Shown piece after piece: positions 1 to 25,443 of a DNA stretch of 64,000 nucleotides. The notes beneath the pieces are model-generated. The model was not told the DNA's origin, ran no database searches, and saw only the letters and a list, made by a program, of their open reading frames with translations. Numbering within the stretch: position 1 is the first letter of the stretch; each line of letters opens with the position of its first letter. Origin of the DNA: Pseudomonas putida (GTDB lineage: Bacteria > Pseudomonadota > Gammaproteobacteria > Pseudomonadales > Pseudomonadaceae). Both the position numbers and the translations under genes were made by a program. The stretch is taken from assembly GCF_009883635.2 (NCBI RefSeq), contig NZ_CP026115.2, forward strand, positions 1,922,001-1,986,000, in the 5' to 3' direction.

Positions 1-3000
1 CTTCACTGCGCTGCTGGCGTTGTCCAGGCTTGCAGCGCTCTGGGCCAGGTTCTGGTTCTCCAGTTCCAGGCCTGCTGGCAACAAATCGACCACCAGGGCA
101 TCCGGCACGCGATCGCTGGCCTTGAGCGCCAGATGCACCAGCACCAGGTCGCCGCTGCGCAGGTTATGCAGGTCCAGCGCCTGGCCGTTCATGCCCAGGT
201 ACTCACGGCGGATCTCCATGCCGTTGCCACCCGCGACAGGTGCCTGGCGTGGATAGCCCGACAGGGTCAGTTGCTGATACAGCGTTTCGCTGCCTTCGTT
301 CTGCACGCTCAGCGGCGAGGCCAGCAATGGCCCTTCGAGCTTCATGCCCGCTTCGACGTTGTTGAACTCACGCACTTCGCCGGCACTGTCCAGGCGTGCC
401 TGCCACGGTGCCTCCGGCTTGCCAAGCAGGCCACGGCCGGCCAGATACAAGGCATTGCGCTCCTGGGTCGACAGCCAGCGGTTGGCTGCCAGCTCGTCCG
501 ACAGGGCAAACAGACGCTGGTCGACCTGGTTGCTGGCCAGTTTGCTCTCCTGCAGCAGCGCCAGGATCAGTGCCTGGTCGCGCAGGCTGCTGCCATAGTC
601 GGCCATCCAGCCCTTGCTGCGGCTGATTCCCAGGCCCGCCTGCAGCGCTTGCTCGGCGCGCGGCTTGTCGCCCATGGCGTCCAGCGCGACGGCCAATTGC
701 ACCAGCGGCAGGCCGGAGCGGGCATCGGCACGGCGCTCGAACAGGCTGCGCAACGCGCCCAGCGGTGCCTGCTGGCTGCGCGACAGCACCAGCGCGGCGT
801 AGGCTTGCACGGCGAAGCGGGTGTGCTCGGCGTTTTCGCTGTAGTCGACTTCGATCAGGTTGCGCTCCTGCAAGTAGCGCAGCAGGCGCTCGTTGGCCTT
901 CTTCAAGGCCTCGGCCGGCACGCCGTAGCCTTGGTCGCGGGCACGCAGGAGGAAGTCGGTGACATAGGCAGTCAGCCAGTATTCCTCTTCGCTGTCCGAG
1001 CTCCACAGGCCGAAACTGCCGTTGTAGCGCTGCATGCCCAGCAGGTGCTCGATGCCCATCTCGATCTTGCGTTTGCGCACCTCGGCCGGCTCACCCTTGA
1101 TGCCCAGGCGCTTGAGGCTCTCGGCATCGGCGTACAATGACGGATACAGGCCACTGGTGGTCTGCTCCAGGCAGCCGTAAGGGTAGGCTTCCAGGGCGCG
1201 GATCTGCTCGGCCAGGTTCAGCGGCGGGCGGCTCGACAGCGCCAGGCTGGCCTCCAGGCCAGCCGGTTCGAAGGCGGCCAGGTCGCTTTCCGGCAAGGTC
1301 CATGGCTGGTCCTTGAGGGCGACGCGGTAATGCTTGAGCACCGCCGGGTAGGCCGGGCGCACGCCCAGGGTCCATTCGCGTTCGAAGGTGTTCGCCGGCT
1401 CGCCCGGCAGTTGCAGGCCATTGACCCGCACCTGCACCTTGCCCTGCCCCAGGCCACCCAAGGCCTGCACCGGGATCAGCAGCGTGCTGCGCTGGCCTTC
1501 TGCCAGGGCGATAGTCTGCTGCGCGCTGGCCGTCAGGCTCAGCTGGCCTTCAGTGCGGATCTCGACGCTCAACTGCTGCGCACGCCCCGACAGGTTGGCC
1601 AGGTCCAGCGCCAGGCTGGTGCGGTCACCGCCGGCCAGGAAGCGCGGCGCCGACAGTTCGGCAATCAGCGGCGCGGCCACCACCGTCTTGCCTTCGGCCA
1701 TGCCGAAGTGCTCGTCGGTCCAGGCTTGGGCCATCAGCCGCAACTCGCCATTGAAGTCGGGAATATCGACGGTCGCCTCGCCTTCCCCCTGGTCGTTCAG
1801 GGTCACCGGCAGGCTTTGCTGGGCAACGATGGTGACCGTGGTGTTGGGCCGCTTGCCGCCCTTGGCCAACGCCGCGTCACCGCCGAAGGCCAGGCTGGCC
1901 AAGCGGCCCTGGCCGGCTTCGATCAGCTGGCCGTAGATGTCCAGCTGATCGGCGCCGTAGGCCTTGCGGCCGAACAGGCTGGTGAACGGGTCGGGGGTCT
2001 TGAAGTCGGTGATGTTGAGGATGCCGACATCGACCGCGGACAGCAGCACATGCACCTGCTTCGGCACGCCGCCGTCAGCATTGGCGGCCTTGATCTTCAC
2101 CGTCAGCGGCTGCTTGGGCCGCATCTTCTCCGGCGCCTGCAGGCTGACCGCGAGCTTGCGCTCGGCACGCGCCAGCGGCAGGTGCAGCACGCCGACGGCG
2201 CGCTTGGGCGTGGCATTGGCCTTGCGCTCACCCGGGCGGATCACCAGCGCACTGATGTACAGGTCATGGCGCGCCCACTGTTTGTCCAGTTGCACATCGA
2301 AGGTCTTGCCCTCGGCAGGCACCTCGATTTCCTGCCACCACAGCGGGCCATCGCTGGACTCGATCATCAGGTAGCCGCTGCCGGCCGCAGGCGGGGTCAC
2401 GGTGACCTTGGCGGTGGCGCCATCGGCATAGGCCGGCTTGTCCAGTGCCAGCTTCACCTGGTCCGGCCGCACCGCGCCGCCTTCGGCGTTGTCCTGGGCG
2501 CGGTAACCGGCCCAGAAGCGCTCGCTGGAAACCAGCCCGGTCTCAGGGTCTTCCACCTCGACGCGGTATGGGCCCCACTCCACCTGGAAGTTCAGCTTGG
2601 CGGTGGAGCCGGCCTTGACGCTGATGGTCTCCTCGCTCTGGGTGAGGAATTTCTCGTTGTAGTTGTAGCTCCAGCCATCGCTCTGCGAGTAGTTCCAGTA
2701 GTAGTCGCGACGCTCGCGGATCAGGCGCACCTTCAGGTCATTGGCGGCGAGCTTGTTGCCTTCGCGGTCGGCCACGAGGAACTCGAATTCCACCGGGCCA
2801 TCGCTGTCGGTTTCCTCACCGTCGAACAGGCCGCGCAAGCCAGGCAGGCGCTCGGCAGGCCAGATTGGCTGCTCCAGGCGACGGGTGATCGGCCGGCCAC
2901 CAGACTCCTGCAGGCTGGCCTGCACGGTCAACTGCAGCGGCGAGCGTGCTTCGGCCCAGTGGCTCTCGATATCGACCACGGCCTTGCCAGCCTGGTCGAG

Positions 3001-4668
3001 GGTCACTTCGTCCAGCTCCAGATCCTGGGCCAGTTCGGTTTCGGTAACCGAGCCGAACTGGTAGCCCGGCAGTGCCGGCACGGCTTCGCGCAGTGGGCGC
3101 ACATAGGCTTGGCCGCTCAAGCGGTTGCCGGCAGCCGGCGCACCGTAGAGGTAGCGGCCATTGACCTGGATGCGCGCATCTTCCTCGGGCGACAGCGGTG
3201 TCTCGCTGCCCTTGAGCTCAAGTGCCAGGCGCTCGGGAAGGAAGTCTTCGACCAGGAACTCGTATACCTGCTTTCGCCCACCACCGAGGTCTAGCAGCAA
3301 TTGCCAGCGGCCGGTTGGGGCCTCCGTAGCCAGTTGCAGCTGGTATTGGTACAGGCCATTGGCGTCGGCCTCCCAGACGAACTTGCGGCTGACCTGCTCA
3401 TCCGGGCGACGCACCTCCACGCTGACCGGTTGAGCCTTGACCGGCTTGCCATCCTGGTCGCGCAGCAAGCCGTTGAGCAGCACCGTTTCACCTGGGCGAT
3501 AGAGGTCCCGCGGCCCGAAGATGAAGAACTGCAGGGGGTTGGCCTGGGGGCCGGTGATGTCGAACTCGGCCAGGTCCAGGGCTGCGGTGTTCAGGCGCAG
3601 CAAGGTGGTGTGCACGCCCTGGGTGGCGATCAGGGTGTCGGCCTTGGCCGTGATCGGCATCTGGGCATGGCCGGCGCCGTCGGTCTTGGCCTGGGCCAGC
3701 AGCTTGCCCTTCTCGTCATGCAGTTCGAGGGTGACGTCCTTGAGCGCCTTGCCGCCTTCCAGGGCCTGGGCGAACACGTCCAGGCGGTCACGGTAGCGGT
3801 GGGCGGACACGCCGATGTCGCTGAGGGTGAACAGCGTCGCCGGCTGCGAATAATCATAGGTGCCCGAGGCACGCATCACGGCCAGGTACACGCCCGGCTC
3901 CTGCAGTGGCTTGATCCCGGCAATCGGCAGCAGCACGGTTTCGCGGGTGTTGCGCGCCGGGTTCAGGTCGAAACGGCCGCTGTAGACCAGCTCGGCCATG
4001 TCCAGGGTTTCCTTGGACTGGTAGTAGTACAGGCTGCTGTTGCGGCCCCAGTTGGCCAGGAAGGTCGAAAGCATCTCCGGTTTGACCCGGAAGAACTCGA
4101 CATCGACCTTGGGCACGTTCAGCGCGATCACCGGCAGGCCTTCGGCCAGGCGGGTGGGCAGCAATGAACCACGGCTGGCAAAGCCAACGGTGGCTTGCAT
4201 GTCGCGGGTTTCCAGGCGGCTCACCGATTCGCTGTCGAGCTGCTTGCCGTTGACCGCCAGCAGGCCCTTGTCGACGGTCAGCACCAGCTTGCGCTGCGGC
4301 TCCAGATGGCGCAGGCGCAATTCCATCTGATTGTCGGAGAGTTCCCAGGCACCGTCGATCTTGCCTTTGACCGTATCGACCAGGTGCACCTTGGCGGCAA
4401 AGTCCTGGTTGGCGTCCAGCGGTGCCGAGAAGCTGATCGACAGGGTACTGGCGCCATCGAGCTGCACTTCCGAGACATCCAGCACACTGAGCTCGCGCCC
4501 TTCGTAGCGCTTGGCGAGGACTGCAGGGTCCTCGCGCTTGAGCACCGGGGCCTCGACCGCAGCACTCGCAGCCGTTTTTTCGGCGGAAGCGGGCTTGCCC
4601 GGCGTCGAGGAGTCACAGGCACTGAGCAAGGCCAGCGCGCAGGCCAGCAACAATCCTTTGTTGAACAT
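1..4668 (-). CDS. alpha-2-macroglobulin family lipoprotein (YfhM-like), 3' end outside the window
   Basis: Bacterial alpha-2-macroglobulins are large periplasmic protease traps anchored to a membrane and usually paired with penicillin-binding protein 1C. The first 1556 codons are present and the frame runs off the left edge without a stop; family members are about 1600-1650 residues, so little is missing. The start at 4668 gives a lipoprotein signal, MFNKGLLLACALALLSAC, with the lipobox Cys at residue 18. The reactive thioester motif CLEQ lies at residues 1166-1169, followed by TTSG, so this is the thioester-bearing YfhM type rather than the thioester-less YfaS/MagD type. It is divergent from the MATE gene. 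The pbpC partner, if present, would lie left of the window. The family call is firm; the substrate proteases are unknown. Confidence 0.93.
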   Translation of the reverse strand, partial: MFNKGLLLACALALLSACDSSTPGKPASAEKTAASAAVEAPVLKREDPAVLAKRYEGRELSVLDVSEVQLDGASTLSISFSAPLDANQDFAAKVHLVDTVKGKIDGAWELSDNQMELRLRHLEPQRKLVLTVDKGLLAVNGKQLDSESVSRLETRDMQATVGFASRGSLLPTRLAEGLPVIALNVPKVDVEFFRVKPEMLSTFLANWGRNSSLYYYQSKETLDMAELVYSGRFDLNPARNTRETVLLPIAGIKPLQEPGVYLAVMRASGTYDYSQPATLFTLSDIGVSAHRYRDRLDVFAQALEGGKALKDVTLELHDEKGKLLAQAKTDGAGHAQMPITAKADTLIATQGVHTTLLRLNTAALDLAEFDITGPQANPLQFFIFGPRDLYRPGETVLLNGLLRDQDGKPVKAQPVSVEVRRPDEQVSRKFVWEADANGLYQYQLQLATEAPTGRWQLLLDLGGGRKQVYEFLVEDFLPERLALELKGSETPLSPEEDARIQVNGRYLYGAPAAGNRLSGQAYVRPLREAVPALPGYQFGSVTETELAQDLELDEVTLDQAGKAVVDIESHWAEARSPLQLTVQASLQESGGRPITRRLEQPIWPAERLPGLRGLFDGEETDSDGPVEFEFLVADREGNKLAANDLKVRLIRERRDYYWNYSQSDGWSYNYNEKFLTQSEETISVKAGSTAKLNFQVEWGPYRVEVEDPETGLVSSERFWAGYRAQDNAEGGAVRPDQVKLALDKPAYADGATAKVTVTPPAAGSGYLMIESSDGPLWWQEIEVPAEGKTFDVQLDKQWARHDLYISALVIRPGERKANATPKRAVGVLHLPLARAERKLAVSLQAPEKMRPKQPLTVKIKAANADGGVPKQVHVLLSAVDVGILNITDFKTPDPFTSLFGRKAYGADQLDIYGQLIEAGQGRLASLAFGGDAALAKGGKRPNTTVTIVAQQSLPVTLNDQGEGEATVDIPDFNGELRLMAQAWTDEHFGMAEGKTVVAAPLIAELSAPRFLAGGDRTSLALDLANLSGRAQQLSVEIRTEGQLSLTASAQQTIALAEGQRSTLLIPVQALGGLGQGKVQVRVNGLQLPGEPANTFEREWTLGVRPAYPAVLKHYRVALKDQPWTLPESDLAAFEPAGLEASLALSSRPPLNLAEQIRALEAYPYGCLEQTTSGLYPSLYADAESLKRLGIKGEPAEVRKRKIEMGIEHLLGMQRYNGSFGLWSSDSEEEYWLTAYVTDFLLRARDQGYGVPAEALKKANERLLRYLQERNLIEVDYSENAEHTRFAVQAYAALVLSRSQQAPLGALRSLFERRADARSGLPLVQLAVALDAMGDKPRAEQALQAGLGISRSKGWMADYGSSLRDQALILALLQESKLASNQVDQRLFALSDELAANRWLSTQERNALYLAGRGLLGKPEAPWQARLDSAGEVREFNNVEAGMKLEGPLLASPLSVQNEGSETLYQQLTLSGYPRQAPVAGGNGMEIRREYLGMNGQALDLHNLRSGDLVLVHLALKASDRVPDALVVDLLPAGLELENQNLAQSAASLDNASSAVK

Positions 4669-4821
4669 GGAGTGGGAACTCTTTGGCAGCGTGTACGTGA
4701 GGGCAGCAACTATAGCGCAACGGTGGAAGTGGGACTTTCACCGATGCGGCAAGTGAGACCCCGTTCGCGCGGATTGGTTGTCAGGTCGTTACAATGCGAC
4801 CCTACCTGATTAGGAACCCAA

Positions 4822-6159
4822 ATGTCGCAACTGACCACCGACTGGCAGCACCGCCCCACCCACCGCAAGGTCTGGGCACTGGCCGCGCCGATGATCCTTT
4901 CCAACATATCGGTACCGCTGGTGGCGCTGGTCGACAGTACCGTGATCGGCCACTTGCCCCACGCCCACCAGCTCGGCGCCGTGGCCGTGGGCGCCACGCT
5001 GTTCACCTTCATGGTCGGCCTGATGGGCTTCCTGCGCATGGGCTCCACCGGCTTCGCCGCCCAGGCCGCCGGGCGGGCCGACGGCGCCGCCCTGCGCCAG
5101 GTGCTGGTGCAAGGCCTGCTGCTGGCCGTGGCCTTCGCCCTGCTCATTGGCCTGCTTGCCCTGCCCTTCAGCCAGTTGGCGCTACAGGCCATGCAACCGA
5201 GCGAGGCGTTGCAGCAATCCACCGAAGACTTCTTCCATACCCGGCTGCTCGGCCTGCCAGCGGCGCTGGCCAGCTATGCGCTGGTCGGCTGGTTCCTCGG
5301 TACACAGAACGCACGCGCGCCGTTGGCGATTCTGCTGACCACCAACCTGCTGAACATCGCCCTCAACCTGTGGTTCGTGCTGGGCCTGAACTGGGGCGTG
5401 CTGGGTTCGGCACGGGCCTCGGTGATCGCCGAATGGAGCGCCGCGCTGCTCGGCCTGGCCCTGACCCGCCCGGCCCTGCGCGCCCACCCCGGGCAGATCG
5501 TCTGGGCTGCACTCAAACGCTGGCAGGCCTGGCGGCCACTGCTGGCGGTAAACCGCGACATCTTCCTGCGCAGCCTGGCGCTGCAACTGGTGTTCCTGCT
5601 GATCACCGTGCAGGGCGCGCGGCTGGGCGAAGCCACGGTGGCGGCCAATGCCCTGCTGCTCAACGGGCTGCTGCTCACCGCCTATGCGCTCGATGGCCTG
5701 GCGCATGCTGTGGAGGCGCTGTGCGGGCATGCCATCGGTGCGCGGGATCGAGATACCTTGCGTCGCTCGCTGGTGGTGGCCTGCGGTTGGTCGCTGATCA
5801 CCAGCCTGGGGTTTGCTGGCTTGTTCCTGCTGTGCGGGCACCTGTTCATCGACCTGCAGACCGATATCGATAGCGTGCGGGCGGCGGCCTATCCGTACCT
5901 GCCGTACCTGGCGCTGCTGCCATTGATTGCGGTGTGGAGCTACTTGCTCGACGGGCTGTTCATCGGCGCAACCCGGGCGCGGGAGATGCGCAATGCGATG
6001 CTGCTGTCGGTGCTGATAGCGCTGCCCTTTGGGGTGGTCATGAGCGGGTTTGGCAACCATGGGTTGTGGTTGGCCTTTCTCGGGTTCATGGCGTTGCGGG
6101 CAGTGACGCTGGGGTGGGTAGGTTGGCGATTGCAGGAAAATGGGCGCTGGATTCAATGA
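4822..6159 (+). CDS. MATE family efflux transporter (DinF-like)
   Basis: This 445-residue protein is a polytopic inner-membrane cation/drug antiporter of the MATE family. The sequence is hydrophobic throughout, with about twelve predicted membrane segments. The N-terminal half holds the typical stretch APMILSNISVPLVALVDST, matching DinF/NorM relatives that place an Asp in helix 1. The ATG at 4822 follows a weak AGGA sequence and agrees with the family N-terminus. It is transcribed alone and diverges from the macroglobulin gene with a 153-bp gap. It ends in a GC-rich hairpin region near 6161. The substrate cannot be told from sequence. DinF members are linked to oxidative or bile-salt tolerance in enteric bacteria, but applying that here would be inference. 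Confidence 0.92.
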   Translation: MSQLTTDWQHRPTHRKVWALAAPMILSNISVPLVALVDSTVIGHLPHAHQLGAVAVGATLFTFMVGLMGFLRMGSTGFAAQAAGRADGAALRQVLVQGLLLAVAFALLIGLLALPFSQLALQAMQPSEALQQSTEDFFHTRLLGLPAALASYALVGWFLGTQNARAPLAILLTTNLLNIALNLWFVLGLNWGVLGSARASVIAEWSAALLGLALTRPALRAHPGQIVWAALKRWQAWRPLLAVNRDIFLRSLALQLVFLLITVQGARLGEATVAANALLLNGLLLTAYALDGLAHAVEALCGHAIGARDRDTLRRSLVVACGWSLITSLGFAGLFLLCGHLFIDLQTDIDSVRAAAYPYLPYLALLPLIAVWSYLLDGLFIGATRAREMRNAMLLSVLIALPFGVVMSGFGNHGLWLAFLGFMALRAVTLGWVGWRLQENGRWIQ

Positions 6160-18875: not shown

Positions 18876-20729
18876 CTACCCTTTCATCCGCGGCATCTCG
18901 ATCCGGTGCTCATGCACCCGCCGATACAAGGTCGCTCGCGATATCCCCAACGCCCGCGCCGCTTCCGCCGGCTTCCAGCGATGGCGGATCAGGGCATCGA
19001 GCAGCAACTGCCGAGCCGGGCTCGACACGCCGACATCCGCCGCAGGCACGGCATCAACCCGCACCTCTTGCGGCAGGTTCTCAAGGCACAGCAGTCCGCC
19101 GTCACTGACCGCACAGGCATAACGCAGCACCTGTCGCAGCTGGCGCAAATTCCCCGGCCAGCGGTACACCAGCAGCGCTTGCAACGCATCATCTGTCAGC
19201 ACTACCTCAACCCCGCAAGCCTCAGCCTCCTCAGCCAGCAACTGATGAATCAGGCCCAATCGGTCCTCCCGCTCACGCAGCGGTGGCAACTCGAAGCGGG
19301 CATTGGCCAGACGGAAATACAGGTCCTCACGGAAACGCCCTTCACTCACCATCGCCGCCAGGTCGCGGTGGGTGGCACAGATCACCTGGATATCCACCCG
19401 TTCCCGCCGCGCAGCGCCCAGCGGCGCCACTTCGCCTTCGGCCAGCACCCGCAGCAGGCGGGTCTGCAGGTGCAGCGGCATGTCGCCGATTTCGTCGAGG
19501 AACAAGGTGCCGCCATCAGCCTGCTGCAACAGCCCCTGCATGCCTTTGCTCGACGCACCGGTAAACGCCCCGGCGACATAACCGAACAGCTCGCTCTCGA
19601 TCAGGCTCTCGGGGATGGCTGCACAATTCAGCGTGACGAACGGCCCTTCACGGCGCTGGCTCTGTTGGTGCAACTGGCGCGCGAAAACTTCCTTGCCGGC
19701 ACCGGTCTCGCCCTGCACCAGCACGGCCAGGTTGCAATCCTTGACCCTTATGGCCAATCGCAAGTGCTGTTCGATGCGCGCATCCTGCCCTTGCTGCAAG
19801 GGTTGCGCCCGGCCCCGCCGCTGGGGCGCGCTGACCCGCCCGTACAACCCGCCCCAACCCGGCAGGCGCTGGGCCGAGGCATCGTTGGCGCGGCGTAGCT
19901 GGGCCATGTCGAATAGTTCACCGATGTGTTCAGGCAAACGCCCGTGCCGCGCCAGCAGGCGCTCGCGGGCCAGGCTGTTGATCGCCTGCAGGCGGCCTTC
20001 GGCATCCCAGGCCAGCAAGTAGTCAGGCTGGCTTTCCACATAACCTGGCGTGCCATGGGCGCGCATCACCCAGTGGCCCTGGGCGCTGTGCATGAAAAAG
20101 GCGTTCTCGATTTCCCGCGCGGTCTGCTCCACCAGTTGCAGGATCAGGTGCTGGCTGCGGCGGTCGTCCGGTGATTGCAGGGCCGACACATCCACCACGC
20201 CGAGCAGTTCGCCCTGCGGGTCGAATACCGGAGCCGCCGTGCAGGTCAGGCCGATGAAGGCGGCGCGAAAGTGATCGCGCTTGTGCACCGTGACCGGCGC
20301 CTTGCTGGTCAGCACCGCCGCCACGCCACAGGTACCCTCTTCGCCCTCGGACCAGCAGGTGCCCAGGTACAGGCCGGCCTTGCGGCAATCGTTGCGGATG
20401 GCCGATTCGACCCGGTAATCGATGGTGCGCCCCAGGGCATCGGTCAGCAGCACGCAATAGTCGGCGCCGCGCACCCGCGCATGCAGGCGCGCCACGGCAT
20501 CGCTGGCGATGCGCAGGAACAGTTCGGCGCGCTCGCGGCATTCATTGAGCAGGGTTTGAGAAAGGATACGCGGCCCCTGCTGGGACCCGGGGTCAAGACG
20601 ATACAGCTCCATGGAACGGCGCCATGAGTCGAGGATCAGCGGCGGCACCGGCGCCTGGGGCAAGCGGTCGGCGTTCTTCAGCACCCGGCTGACGCAATCG
20701 ACATGGGCTCGGGAGTTCGCGGCAAGCAT
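18876..20729 (-). CDS. acoR: sigma-54-dependent activator of acetoin catabolism AcoR
   Basis: AcoR activates the acetoin dehydrogenase operon with sigma-54 RNA polymerase. The 617-residue protein has an N-terminal GAF-type sensor region, a central AAA+ domain with Walker A GETGAGKE and the sigma-54 contact loop GAFTGAS, and a C-terminal Fis-type helix-turn-helix (EAARALGISRATLYRRVHEH). The ATG at 20729 is preferred because GGAGG lies just upstream; an in-frame start 69 bases earlier has no such site. It diverges from acoX, and the gap holds two palindromic sites and a -24/-12 promoter. Its effector is presumably acetoin or a related compound. Confidence 0.93.
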   Translation of the reverse strand: MLAANSRAHVDCVSRVLKNADRLPQAPVPPLILDSWRRSMELYRLDPGSQQGPRILSQTLLNECRERAELFLRIASDAVARLHARVRGADYCVLLTDALGRTIDYRVESAIRNDCRKAGLYLGTCWSEGEEGTCGVAAVLTSKAPVTVHKRDHFRAAFIGLTCTAAPVFDPQGELLGVVDVSALQSPDDRRSQHLILQLVEQTAREIENAFFMHSAQGHWVMRAHGTPGYVESQPDYLLAWDAEGRLQAINSLARERLLARHGRLPEHIGELFDMAQLRRANDASAQRLPGWGGLYGRVSAPQRRGRAQPLQQGQDARIEQHLRLAIRVKDCNLAVLVQGETGAGKEVFARQLHQQSQRREGPFVTLNCAAIPESLIESELFGYVAGAFTGASSKGMQGLLQQADGGTLFLDEIGDMPLHLQTRLLRVLAEGEVAPLGAARRERVDIQVICATHRDLAAMVSEGRFREDLYFRLANARFELPPLREREDRLGLIHQLLAEEAEACGVEVVLTDDALQALLVYRWPGNLRQLRQVLRYACAVSDGGLLCLENLPQEVRVDAVPAADVGVSSPARQLLLDALIRHRWKPAEAARALGISRATLYRRVHEHRIEMPRMKG

Positions 20730-20822
20730 GGGGCCTCCGGTTCCTGTTTGTTCTTGTCGTTGTGCGGCCATTAAGCGCCTGCCGGCATGTCCCGACAAGC
20801 GCTGTGTGATTACCGGTGGGCT

Positions 20823-20959: not shown

Positions 20960-20974
20960 TGGCACCCGCCTTGC
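20960..20974 (+). promoter_or_regulatory. sigma-54 (-24/-12) promoter of acoXABC
   Basis: TGGCACCCGCCTTGC matches the consensus TGGCAC-N5-TTGC exactly, with GG and GC ten bases apart. It lies about 35 bp before the acoX start and just beyond the two palindromic sites. Confidence 0.9.
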
Positions 20975-21008: not shown

Positions 21009-22064
21009 ATGCCGCAGCCCGCCCCGACCATCGGGATCATTGCCAACCCTGCCTCCGGCCGCGACCTGCGTCGCCTGACCAGCAACGCCGGGCTCTACTC
21101 CAGCACCGACAAGGCCTCGGTCATCCAGCGCCTGCTCGGCGCTTTTGGCGCCACGGGCGTTGCCGAGGTGCTGCTGCCCACCGACATGACCGGGATTGCC
21201 GCCGCCGTGCTCAAGGCCAGCCTCGGCCCCGTGGCACAGGACCAGCACTGGCCGCGCCTGGCACTGCTCGACCTGCCATTGACCCAGACTGTCAGCGACA
21301 CCCGGCTGGCCACCCGGCAGATGGTCGAGCGAGGCGTGGCGATGATCGCCGTGCTGGGCGGCGATGGCACGCACAAGGCCGTGGCGGCCGAGGCTGGGGA
21401 CACGCCCCTGCTCACCCTGTCCACCGGCACCAACAACGCCTTCCCGGAGCTGCGCGAAGCCACCAGCGCAGGCCTCGCTGGCGGCTTGCTCGCTGGCGGC
21501 CGGGTACCGGCCAGCATCGGCCTGCGCCGCAACAAGCGGCTGCTGGTGAAGGTACCGCAGCAACAGCTGTGCGAGTGGGCGCTGGTCGAAGTGGCGGTGT
21601 CGCCGCAACGCTTCATCGGCGCCCGTGCGCTGAGCCGCAGCGAAGACCTCAGCGAAATCTTCGCCTGCTTCGCCGAGCCCCACGCCATCGGCCTGTCCGC
21701 GCTCTGCGGGCTGTGGCAGCCGGTGGCCCGCCATGAACCCCACGGCGCCTGGGTAAGGCTCAACCCTGGTGCCGAACAGGCCCTGCTCGCCCCACTGGCC
21801 CCCGGCCTGCTGCAAGGCTGCGGCATCACCGCCAGCGGCACGCTCAGCCCGGGCGTGGCCCATCGCCTGAGCCTCACCGCCGGCACCCTGGCCCTGGATG
21901 GCGAACGCGAGATCGAGTTCGCCGAACACGACACCCCGACCATCACCCTCGACCTGCAGGGCCCGTTGACCGTCGACGTCGAGGCCGTGCTGGCACATGC
22001 CGCCCGTCATCACCTGCTGGCCGTCCCGCACGGCCATCGGCTGCACCCTGCAACCCCGTGTTGA
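21009..22064 (+). CDS. acoX: acetoin catabolism protein AcoX (ATP-NAD kinase-like)
   Basis: AcoX is conserved in Pseudomonas and Ralstonia acetoin operons but its role is not settled. The 351-residue protein belongs to the ATP-NAD/AcoX kinase family: it begins PTIGIIANPASGRDLRRL and carries the nucleotide-binding motif GGDGTH (about residue 117) followed by STGTNNAFPE. This suggests phosphorylation of a nucleotide or small metabolite, which is inference. The ATG at 21009 has GAGGTG upstream. It is the first gene after the sigma-54 promoter, and acoA follows after 22 bp. Confidence 0.92.
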   Translation: MPQPAPTIGIIANPASGRDLRRLTSNAGLYSSTDKASVIQRLLGAFGATGVAEVLLPTDMTGIAAAVLKASLGPVAQDQHWPRLALLDLPLTQTVSDTRLATRQMVERGVAMIAVLGGDGTHKAVAAEAGDTPLLTLSTGTNNAFPELREATSAGLAGGLLAGGRVPASIGLRRNKRLLVKVPQQQLCEWALVEVAVSPQRFIGARALSRSEDLSEIFACFAEPHAIGLSALCGLWQPVARHEPHGAWVRLNPGAEQALLAPLAPGLLQGCGITASGTLSPGVAHRLSLTAGTLALDGEREIEFAEHDTPTITLDLQGPLTVDVEAVLAHAARHHLLAVPHGHRLHPATPC

Positions 22065-22086: not shown

Positions 22087-23063
22087 ATGTCCACTCACCT
22101 CAGTTCAGAGCAATTGCTGCATGCCTATGAAGTGATGCGCACCATCCGCGCCTTCGAAGAACGCCTGCACGTGGAATTCGCCACCGGCGAGATACCCGGT
22201 TTCGTCCACCTGTATGCCGGCGAAGAGGCCTCCGCCGCCGGGGTCATGGCGCACTTGCGCGACAGTGACTGCATCGCCTCGACCCACCGCGGCCATGGCC
22301 ACTGCATCGCCAAGGGCGTCGACGTGTACGGCATGATGGCCGAGATCTACGGCAAGAAGACCGGCGTGTGCGGCGGCAAGGGCGGTTCCATGCACATCGC
22401 CGACCTGGAGAAAGGCATGCTCGGTGCCAACGGCATTGTCGGTGCCGGCGCGCCACTGGTGGCCGGTGCCGCCCTGGCGGCCAAGATCAAGGGCAATGAC
22501 AACGTGGCCGTGGCCTTCTTCGGCGACGGCGCTTCCAACGAGGGCGCGGTGTTCGAGGCGATGAACCTGGCCTCGATCATGAACCTGCCGTGCATCTTCG
22601 TCGCCGAGAACAACGGCTATGCCGAAGCCACCGCCTCGACCTGGTCGGTGGCCTGCGACCACATCGCCGACCGCGCCGCCGGTTTCGGCATGCCGGGGGT
22701 GACCATCGACGGCTTCGGTTCTTTGCCGTGCACGAGGCCGCTGGCGCCGCCATCGAGCGCGCCCGTTCCGGGCAAGGCCCGTCGCTGATCGAGGTCAAGC
22801 TGAGCCGCTACTACGGGCACTTCGAAGGCGACGCACAGACCTACCGTGCCCCCGATGAAGTGAAAAACCTGCGCGAATCCCGCGACTGCCTGCTGCAGTT
22901 TCGCAACAAGACCACCCGTGCCGGCCTGCTACAGGCGGCGCAACTGGACGCCATCGACGCCCGTGTCGACGACCTGATCGTAGACGCCGTGCGCCGCGCC
23001 AAAGCCGACCCCAAGCCGCAGCCAGCCGACCTGCTCACCGACGTCTACGTCAGCTACCCCTGA
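22087..23063 (+). pseudogene. acoA: acetoin dehydrogenase E1 alpha subunit, frameshifted
   Basis: AcoA with AcoB forms the thiamin-diphosphate E1 component that cleaves acetoin. From the ATG at 22087 (GGAG nine bases upstream) the frame encodes the first 212 or so residues, including the ThDP motif GDGASNEGAVFEAMN and VAENNGYAEATA. After DGF at 22711-22716 the frame is wrong and ends at a TGA at 22786-22788 (233 residues). The rest (FFAVHEAAGAAIERARSGQG through DVYVSYP) continues in the +3 frame from 22719 to the stop at 23063. Adding one base near 22717-22719 restores a 325-residue protein, the normal AcoA length. It is either a true one-base deletion or a sequencing error; there is no homopolymer at the site. 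Confidence 0.9.
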
Positions 23064-23095: not shown

Positions 23096-24118
23096 ATGGC
23101 TAGAAAAATCAGCTATCAGCAGGCCATCAACGAGGCCTTGGCCCAGGAAATGCGCCGCGACACCAGCGTGTTCATCATTGGCGAAGACGTTGCCGGTGGT
23201 GCGGGTGCCCCGGGCGAGGATGACGCCTGGGGTGGCGTGCTCGGCGTCACCAAAGGCCTGTACCACCAGTTCCCGGGGCGTGTGCTCGATGCGCCGCTGT
23301 CGGAAATCGGCTACGTCGGTGCCGCCGTCGGTGCCGCCACTCAAGGCCTGCGCCCGGTGTGCGAGCTGATGTTCGTCGACTTTGCCGGCTGCTGCCTGGA
23401 CCAGATCCTCAATCAGGCCGCCAAGTTCCGCTACATGTTCGGCGGCAAGGCGGTCACCCCGCTGGTGATGCGCACCATGTACGGTGCCGGCCTGCGCGCT
23501 GCGGCCCAGCACTCGCAGATGCTTACCTCGCTTTGGACTCACATCCCCGGCCTGAAGGTGGTCTGCCCGTCTTCGCCGTATGACGCCAAGGGCCTGCTGA
23601 TCCAGGCAATCCGCGACAACGACCCGGTGATCTTCTGCGAACACAAGCTGCTCTACAGCATGCAGGGCGAAGTGCCGGAAGAGGTGTACACCGTGCCATT
23701 TGGCGAGGCCAACTTCCTGCGCGACGGCGACGACGTGACCCTGGTGACCTACGGGCGCATGGTCCATGTGGCCATGGAAGCGGCCAACAACCTCGCCCGC
23801 CAGGGCATCGACTGCGAAGTGCTGGACCTGCGCACCACCAGCCCGCTGGACGAGGACAGCATTCTCGAAAGCGTGGAGAAGACCGGCCGCCTGGTGGTGA
23901 TCGACGAAGCCAACCCGCGCTGCTCGATGGCCACCGATATCAGCGCACTGGTCGTGCAAAAGGCCTTTGCCGCGCTCAAGGGCCCGATCGAGATGGTCAC
24001 CGCGCCGCACACTCCAGTGCCGTTCTCCGATGCCCTGGAAGACCTGTACATCCCTGACGCGGCGAAGGTCGAAGCAGCCGTGCGCAAGGTGATCGAAGCT
24101 GCGAGGAATGCCGCATGA
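23096..24118 (+). CDS. acoB: acetoin dehydrogenase E1 beta subunit
   Basis: AcoB is the beta chain of the ThDP-dependent E1 of acetoin:DCPIP oxidoreductase. The 340-residue protein has the transketolase pyrimidine-binding domain (starting ISYQQAINEALAQEM, with FIIGEDVAGG) and the C-terminal transketolase domain (DDVTLVTYGRMVH). AGGAG precedes the ATG at 23096. It lies 32 bp after the acoA remnant and overlaps acoC by four bases (ATGA). The reading frame is intact although its partner acoA is broken. Confidence 0.95.
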   Translation: MARKISYQQAINEALAQEMRRDTSVFIIGEDVAGGAGAPGEDDAWGGVLGVTKGLYHQFPGRVLDAPLSEIGYVGAAVGAATQGLRPVCELMFVDFAGCCLDQILNQAAKFRYMFGGKAVTPLVMRTMYGAGLRAAAQHSQMLTSLWTHIPGLKVVCPSSPYDAKGLLIQAIRDNDPVIFCEHKLLYSMQGEVPEEVYTVPFGEANFLRDGDDVTLVTYGRMVHVAMEAANNLARQGIDCEVLDLRTTSPLDEDSILESVEKTGRLVVIDEANPRCSMATDISALVVQKAFAALKGPIEMVTAPHTPVPFSDALEDLYIPDAAKVEAAVRKVIEAARNAA

Positions 24119-25221
24119 GCCAGATCCATACCCTGACCATGCCCAAGTGGGGCCTGTCGATGACCGAAGGCCGGGTCGACGCCTGGCTCAAGCAGGAGGG
24201 GGATGAAATCAGCAAGGGCGACGAGGTGCTGGATGTCGAGACCGACAAGATCAGCAGCAGCGTCGAGGCGCCGTTCAGCGGCGTGCTGCGCCGCCAGGTG
24301 GCCCGGCCCGACGAAACTTTGCCGGTAGGTGCACTGCTGGCCGTGGTGGTGGAAGGGGAAGCCGAGGAATCGGAAATCGATGCCGTGGTGCAACGCTTCC
24401 AGGCCGAGTTCGTCGCTGAAGGGGGTGCCGACCAGGCCCAGGGGCCAGCACCGCAAAAGGCCGAAGTGGCCGGGCGCCTGCTGCGCTGGTTCGAACTGGG
24501 TGAAGGTGGCACGCCGCTGGTGCTGGTGCATGGTTTTGGCGGCGACCTCAACAACTGGCTGTTCAACCACCCGGCATTGGCGGCCGAGCGTCGAGTCATC
24601 GCCCTGGACCTGCCGGGGCATGGTGAATCGGCCAAGGCCCTGGCAAAAGGTGATCTGGATGAGCTGAGCGAAACCGTGCTGGCCTTGCTCGATCATCTGG
24701 ATATCGCCAAGGCCCACCTGGCCGGGCACTCCATGGGTGGCGCGGTCAGTCTGAATGTGGCGCGCCTGGCGCCGCAACGGGTAGCTAGCCTGAGCCTGGT
24801 GGCCAGTGCCGGGCTGGGTGAGACGATCAATGGCCAGTACCTGCAAGGTTTCGTCGCCGCCGCCAACCGCAATGCGCTGAAGCCGCATCTGGTGCAGCTG
24901 TTTGCCGACCCAGGGCTGGTGACCCGGCAGATGCTCGAAGACATGCTCAAGTTCAAGCGCCTGGAAGGCGTGGATGACGCCTTGCGCCAGCTGGGGTCGG
25001 CGCTGGCTGACGGTGACCGCCAGCGGCATGACCTGCGTGGGGTGCTGGGGCAGCATCCGGCGCTGGTGATCTGGGGGGCCGAGGACGCGATCATTCCGGC
25101 GGCGCATGCCGATGGGGTCGAGGCCGAGGTGCTGGTGGTGCCAGGGGTCGGGCACATGGTTCAGATGGAGGCGGCGGAGCAGGTGAACCAGCGGCTGCTG
25201 GAATTCCTGCGCAAGCACTGA
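24115..25221 (+). CDS. acoC: acetoin dehydrogenase E2 component (lipoyl plus alpha/beta hydrolase)
   Basis: AcoC transfers the acetyl group from E1 to CoA. In 368 residues the order is an N-terminal lipoyl domain (1-80) with lipoyl lysine K45 in VETDKIS, a short linker, and an alpha/beta-hydrolase fold domain (about 120-368) with nucleophile motif GHSMGG, Asp in WGAED, and His in GVGHMV. This architecture is typical of Pseudomonas AcoC and differs from the usual E2 catalytic domain. No E3 (lpd/acoL) or butanediol dehydrogenase gene follows; acoC is the last gene before a REP pair. Confidence 0.95.
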   Translation: MSQIHTLTMPKWGLSMTEGRVDAWLKQEGDEISKGDEVLDVETDKISSSVEAPFSGVLRRQVARPDETLPVGALLAVVVEGEAEESEIDAVVQRFQAEFVAEGGADQAQGPAPQKAEVAGRLLRWFELGEGGTPLVLVHGFGGDLNNWLFNHPALAAERRVIALDLPGHGESAKALAKGDLDELSETVLALLDHLDIAKAHLAGHSMGGAVSLNVARLAPQRVASLSLVASAGLGETINGQYLQGFVAAANRNALKPHLVQLFADPGLVTRQMLEDMLKFKRLEGVDDALRQLGSALADGDRQRHDLRGVLGQHPALVIWGAEDAIIPAAHADGVEAEVLVVPGVGHMVQMEAAEQVNQRLLEFLRKH

Positions 25222-25248
25222 CCACTCTCTACTGCCTATTACGGCCTA

Positions 25249-25332
25249 TTCGCGGGGCAAGCCCGCTCCCACAGGATCTCCACAGCCCTTGATGCCTGTG
25301 AACCACCTGTGGGAGCGGGCTTGCCCCGCGAA
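25249..25332. repeat. inverted REP pair after acoC
   Basis: Two exact 27-bp arms (25249-25275 and 25306-25332), with core GGGGCAAGCCCGCTCCCAC, are separated by 30 bp. It forms the boundary between the acetoin operon and prmA. Confidence 0.9.
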
Positions 25333-25443
25333 GAAGGCGACGCGGTCTACTGACCCTGCTCTACAAACCCCCCGCACTCGCGTAAACTGCCAGGCTTCTC
25401 GCAGCCTCGGGCTGCCCCTGTCGATTTACCAAAGGTGCCCGCC

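Follow-up and report, generated by a model that had tools for sequence, protein, structure and literature searches.

A net one-base frameshift in acoA of a Pseudomonas putida-group genome: probable recent loss of acetoin dehydrogenase E1 alpha

The aco locus and its interrupted acoA frame

The DNA analysed here, called the window throughout, is a stretch of 64,000 nucleotides from an assembly labelled Pseudomonas putida (NZ_CP026115.2, positions 1,922,001 to 1,986,000), and it carries a cluster of aco genes for acetoin catabolism (Table 1). Within this cluster acoA, the gene for E1 alpha of acetoin dehydrogenase, is placed between acoX and acoB and is accompanied by an AcoC-type E2, as judged from gene order and from an NF011457 match above its cut-off.

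Table 1. Features of the aco locus, numbered from the first base of the window
Feature	Position	Strand	Description
acoR, sigma-54-dependent activator	18876..20798	-	640-codon open frame; true start may be internal
sigma-54-type promoter site	20960..20974	+	pattern match; 49 nt before acoX start
acoX	21009..22064	+	351 aa, intact; no indel against 12 loci
acoA native 5' part	22087..22716	+	210 codons to IDGF; ORF list and profile matches
lesion	22717..22721	+	one base replaces two of the relatives, inside one codon; differs from all 87 aligned loci
out-of-frame tail	22717..22788	+	23 residues and stop
acoA remaining 3' part	22719..23063	+	next frame; 114 codons and stop; ORF list and profile matches
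acoB, E1 beta	23096..24118	+	340 aa, intact; no indel against 12 loci; NF006667 above cut-off
acoC, acetoin dehydrogenase E2	24115..25221	+	368 aa, intact; NF011457 508.9 bits against a cut-off of 307; no indel against 12 loci
acoC-prmA junction	25222..25443		bdh position in relatives such as L052, L056 and L065; no remnant here

The acoA frame opens with an ATG at 22087, takes in the ThDP motif, reaches IDGF at residue 210 and ends at a stop at 22786-22788, which gives a truncated product of 233 aa composed of 210 native and 23 foreign residues. The next frame, read from 22719, begins with FFAVHEAAGAAIERA and continues for 114 aa up to the stop at 23063. An earlier sequence-only reading of this DNA had described this remainder as intact. 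Both pieces match the same profiles at adjacent positions. TIGR03182 is covered at positions 2-205 and 207-315, with both pieces scoring under the curated cut-off as expected for partial sequences, and Pfam E1_dh is split across the two frames (3-194 and 197-299 of 300) with no full domain in any single frame. The frame is thus broken relative to intact orthologs while both parts remain recognisable, as in a recent pseudogene.

The codon hit by the lesion follows directly after the conserved IDGF and encodes Asp in 87 of 87 aligned loci, all of which are longer than the window by one base at this point. The frameshift placed at 22717-22719 by the sequence-only reading is therefore borne out as a net change of one base. 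Its description as one base lost does not hold, since the adjacent base, which that reading had missed, also differs from the relatives and two bases have become one. The site does not lie in a homopolymer, and the change is a two-for-one replacement and not a slip.

No second acoA was found. The genome consists of one contig of 6,190,190 bases, and a DNA search of it returned a single acoA, the two other matches being only 28 and 66 bases long. A search of the same genome with Pfam E1_dh returned both pieces of acoA, a further full-length E1 alpha at 897894 (436-codon frame), which we take to be the branched-chain enzyme, and three more matches that were weaker or partial and lay within other frames.

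The neighbouring genes and the promoter look intact, as had been proposed. The genes all have open frames, and acoX, acoB and acoC align without indels to 12 loci from 8 genomes; acoR aligns over its full length without an indel to 8 of the 12, the other four showing an insertion or the end of the match. The sigma-54 activator profiles matched by acoR all scored under curated cut-offs that were set for other family members. The pattern TGGCA[CT]-N5-TTGC, which we assume to be the sigma-54 consensus, was matched in 77 of 79 loci when sought anywhere in locus positions 1801-4000 and not only before acoX.

acoA and bdh among relatives

The 87 loci comprise 80 named genome contigs, collected through acoB (80 kept of 505 confirmed), and 7 others, 4 of which duplicate named ones when contigs of equal length are treated as the same, so that 83 contigs are distinct. 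In 85 of these loci acoA can be read through the whole matched region without a break, the exceptions being L105, which ends at a contig end, and L081, which has a separate frameshift. By scripted measurement acoA is exactly 325 aa long in 79 of the 87 loci and 339-340 aa in 3, while L105 gives 243 and L081 gives 167; 3 further loci are open-framed with the start Met not located. The closest loci are those of P. putida KH-21-134 (L034) and Pseudomonas sp. CC120222-01a (L032), each with 96.2% identity over acoA. Both lack bdh, the (R,R)-2,3-butanediol dehydrogenase gene, as does the window, but unlike the window they keep acoA open over 325 codons. Comparison with close relatives, a check proposed by the sequence-only reading, gave the same picture for all 7 nearest genomes, in which acoA is open. 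At approximately 96% identity over acoA these nearest genomes are species of the P. putida group, and the name P. putida serves here as no more than a group label.

The complete chromosome of Pseudomonas sp. KNUC1026 (L081) resembles the window in having a frameshifted acoA with acoR, acoB, acoC and bdh otherwise present, although its frame is lost elsewhere, near the equivalent of window position 22491 (L081 about 4027-4975). From its position we regard this frameshift as an independent event or an error. We did not find acoX in the L081 locus. A truncated AcoA was absent among the best 120 of 8000 scored candidates (lengths 324-352), where clustering at 90% could hide one. A literature search returned no title on a natural acoA frameshift in Pseudomonas, which does not prove that none is in print.

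The acoRXABC-bdh cluster of P. putida KT2440 (PP_0557 to PP_0552) contains the same genes in the same order from acoR to acoC, and acoXABC together with PP0552 are described as co-transcribed in that strain (PMC8427195). The window differs from KT2440 in its frameshifted acoA, in the absence of bdh and in having prmA after acoC; the adjoining bdh that would mark an aco-bdh operon is thus lacking. Among the 80 loci, bdh follows acoC in 55, two of them partial (L066 and L105), and prmA directly follows acoC without bdh in 11 (L031-L036, L044, L057, L058, L060 and L068) as well as in the window. The other 14 have neither bdh nor prmA in the stretch compared, where L040 is cut. Neither a remnant at the acoC-prmA junction of the window nor an ortholog elsewhere in its genome (best 42% over 120 residues) was found. 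With a limit of E 1e-40, bdh was likewise not found in any of the 7 nearest genomes, while 3 of 3 bdh-bearing control genomes were positive.

In an acoB tree of 81 rows, the window falls inside an 8-row group entirely without bdh (support 94, not starred). With L040 and L105 excluded from the bdh state count and the partial L066 scored as present, absence of bdh recurs on this tree and needs at least 14 changes; bdh loss is therefore common and not special to the clade of the window. An internally deleted bdh lies between acoC and prmA in P. aegrilactucae (L066, 7252-7788) and represents an intermediate stage in the decay of this gene.

PQQ alcohol dehydrogenases of the PedE/PedH type are described as the other route from 2,3-butanediol in KT2440 (PMC8427195). 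None scored above the family cut-off in the genome of the window (best 150 bits against 480), and 2 of the 7 nearest genomes have one above it. With bdh missing and no PQQ enzyme above the cut-off, the known butanediol entries were lost earlier than, or separately from, the acoA lesion. The 7 nearest relatives lack bdh but keep acoA whole, from which it follows that absence of bdh alone does not lead to acoA loss and that acetoin use itself seems worth keeping. Growth on 2,3-butanediol, one of the tests suggested by the sequence-only reading, is consequently not diagnostic of the acoA lesion, since neither this genome nor any of the 7 nearest has bdh; failure to grow on it would say nothing about acoA, and acetoin is the diagnostic substrate.

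Recent loss or sequencing error

To place the acoA lesion among the frameshifts of the assembly, we compared 515 ORFs, covering 605 kb within an 800-kb stretch, with the genome G057, and 525 ORFs in the reverse direction. The forward test gave 26 out-of-frame rows. Substitutions were then counted by codon position on each side of every frameshift event, with third-position bias serving as the coding signature, and only 2 of the 26 rows carried this signature on both sides. These are acoA (2/0/19 upstream and 2/1/13 downstream) and a gene that we label AsmA-like from its sequence (11/4/57 upstream and 7/2/26 downstream). The latter, at C1:1986970-1989062 just past the end of the window, is frameshifted in a short C run relative to both G057 and G058. 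The remaining rows lie in the first 16% of their ORFs, as with upstream extensions. Sorting by position had tagged 3 of the 26 rows as mid-gene, and one of these three, at 216012-218388 of the joined stretch, was doubtful and shows no upstream third-position bias (3/8/4). In the reverse test there were 27 rows among the 525 ORFs, of which two are the truncated acoA and AsmA-like frames of the window's own genome and one (its 664123-665722, with 5 upstream substitutions) is ambiguous; no clear gene-body frameshift of G057 was found among the other rows.

A three-way test produced 7 rows per reference for the window's genome, 5 and 5 for G058, and 5 and 2 for G057; most lie near the ORF start, and one is a gene-body event in G058. 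Over 338 kb the unique one-base indels of the window's genome are balanced, with 56 deletions and 47 insertions; the corresponding figures are 41 and 48 for G057, and 106 and 119 for G058. Of the 103 in the window's genome, 89 fall in runs no longer than two bases. Inside the window 49 ORFs were tested and gave 3 out-of-frame rows; acoA alone is hit later than 15% into its ORF. Nothing in the assembly points to frequent indel errors, and it is still compatible with a single one.

Outside the lesion, acoA has 1 non-synonymous and 6 synonymous window-specific substitutions, compared with 6 and 8 in acoR. Substitution-based selection tests on such numbers are too small to date the lesion, and the ratio in acoA would fit a gene still in use, or in use until very recently. 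The earlier suggestion that loss, if real, is recent agrees with this mostly synonymous pattern. The one non-synonymous change lies in the severed part and gives Val where relatives have E in 76 of 80 loci and D in 4; in addition, AcoB residue 287 is Val in the window but Ala in all 80 loci, and one residue encoded by acoR occurs in none of the relatives. In a leave-one-out control, at least one such odd residue occurred in 10 of 72 loci for the acoA 3' part and in 16 of 72 for acoB (none and 1, respectively, among the 7 closest relatives), and the odd residues are at best a weak hint of drift.

We consider acoA to be probably a very young pseudogene and the loss to be real and recent, and rank this above the reading that the strain has a whole acoA and a working complex and that the frameshift is a single base-calling or assembly error. 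The sequence-only reading had allowed for both. Such an error is a serious if lesser prospect, as it would look identical, a two-for-one miscall is possible, acoA is whole in every close relative and no conspecific strain with the same lesion appeared in anything searched. The 1 to 6 substitutions suit a working gene equally well, the bdh-less relatives keep acoA, and the odd-residue hint is weak. Against an error stand the position of the change outside any homopolymer and the lack of any excess of deletions, homopolymer indels or frameshifted genes elsewhere in the assembly. Real loss is further favored by a sequence shorter by one base than all 87 loci, by the single copy of acoA, by the absence of bdh in the clade, by the KNUC1026 frameshift, by the growth defect of a KT2440 acoB mutant considered below and, slightly, by the hint of drift.

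Two readings that would leave E1 alpha functional are far less credible. Ribosomal slippage could restore the frame and allow some full-length protein to be made, and the two acoA frames do abut almost exactly and are both still constrained, but the arrangement occurs in 0 of 87 loci, 85 of which are simply open, and inspection by eye shows no slippery run there; we judge slippage very improbable. It is just as hard to credit that the two pieces cooperate to form a working E1 alpha. ThDP enzymes with split chains are known, such as the transketolase component in PDB 6yak, but here the cut falls inside a conserved stretch, the first piece bears 23 foreign residues and the second has no start signal visible by eye.

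Consequences for acetoin catabolism

Under the preferred reading of a real and recent loss, one complex small mutation replacing two bases with one after IDGF would have shifted the acoA frame. The cell would then make only the 233-residue product, which would miss the last 115 of the 325 E1 alpha residues including the conserved RYYGHFEGDAQTYR. In an alignment with human PDH E1 alpha, this segment of the lost third pairs with RYHGHSMSDP, a stretch with an active-site role. Acetoin cleavage by the dehydrogenase complex should fail when E1 alpha is missing, while production of AcoX, E1 beta and E2 could continue.

By analogy, a strain that has lost E1 alpha should be unable to grow on acetoin. 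An insertion mutant of KT2440 in acoB is reported not to grow on acetoin or 2,3-butanediol, and its authors note a possible polar effect on acoC (PMC13185156), so this evidence bears on acoA by analogy and with that reservation. In E. coli carrying P. putida aco genes, conversion of acetoin is reported to have also required acoX (PMC10943186).

The acoA lesion would have followed an older, clade-wide loss of bdh, the 2,3-butanediol entry. Loss of bdh probably lowered the usefulness of the pathway, and relaxed selection may then have permitted the lesion. A more far-reaching proposal, that a P. putida-group clade is dismantling the operon in order, bdh and then, in this species, acoA, with acoX, acoB and acoC kept perhaps for a non-acetoin role, seems unlikely to us; its context is that no PedE/PedH-type enzyme exceeds the cut-off in the window's genome, nor in 5 of the 7 genomes nearest to it. 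The acoA lesion is an ordinary strain-level frameshift in a catabolic gene whose pathway was already shortened in the clade, and it is not a new kind of thing.

If real, the loss would provide a natural strain that has genes for AcoX, E1 beta and E2 but no E1 alpha. Such a strain could serve as a background in which to study the function of AcoX and of the remaining subunits, and would be a minor example of a catabolic branch lost in an ordered way. The case likewise cautions that the presence of aco genes alone should not be taken to imply growth on acetoin or 2,3-butanediol.
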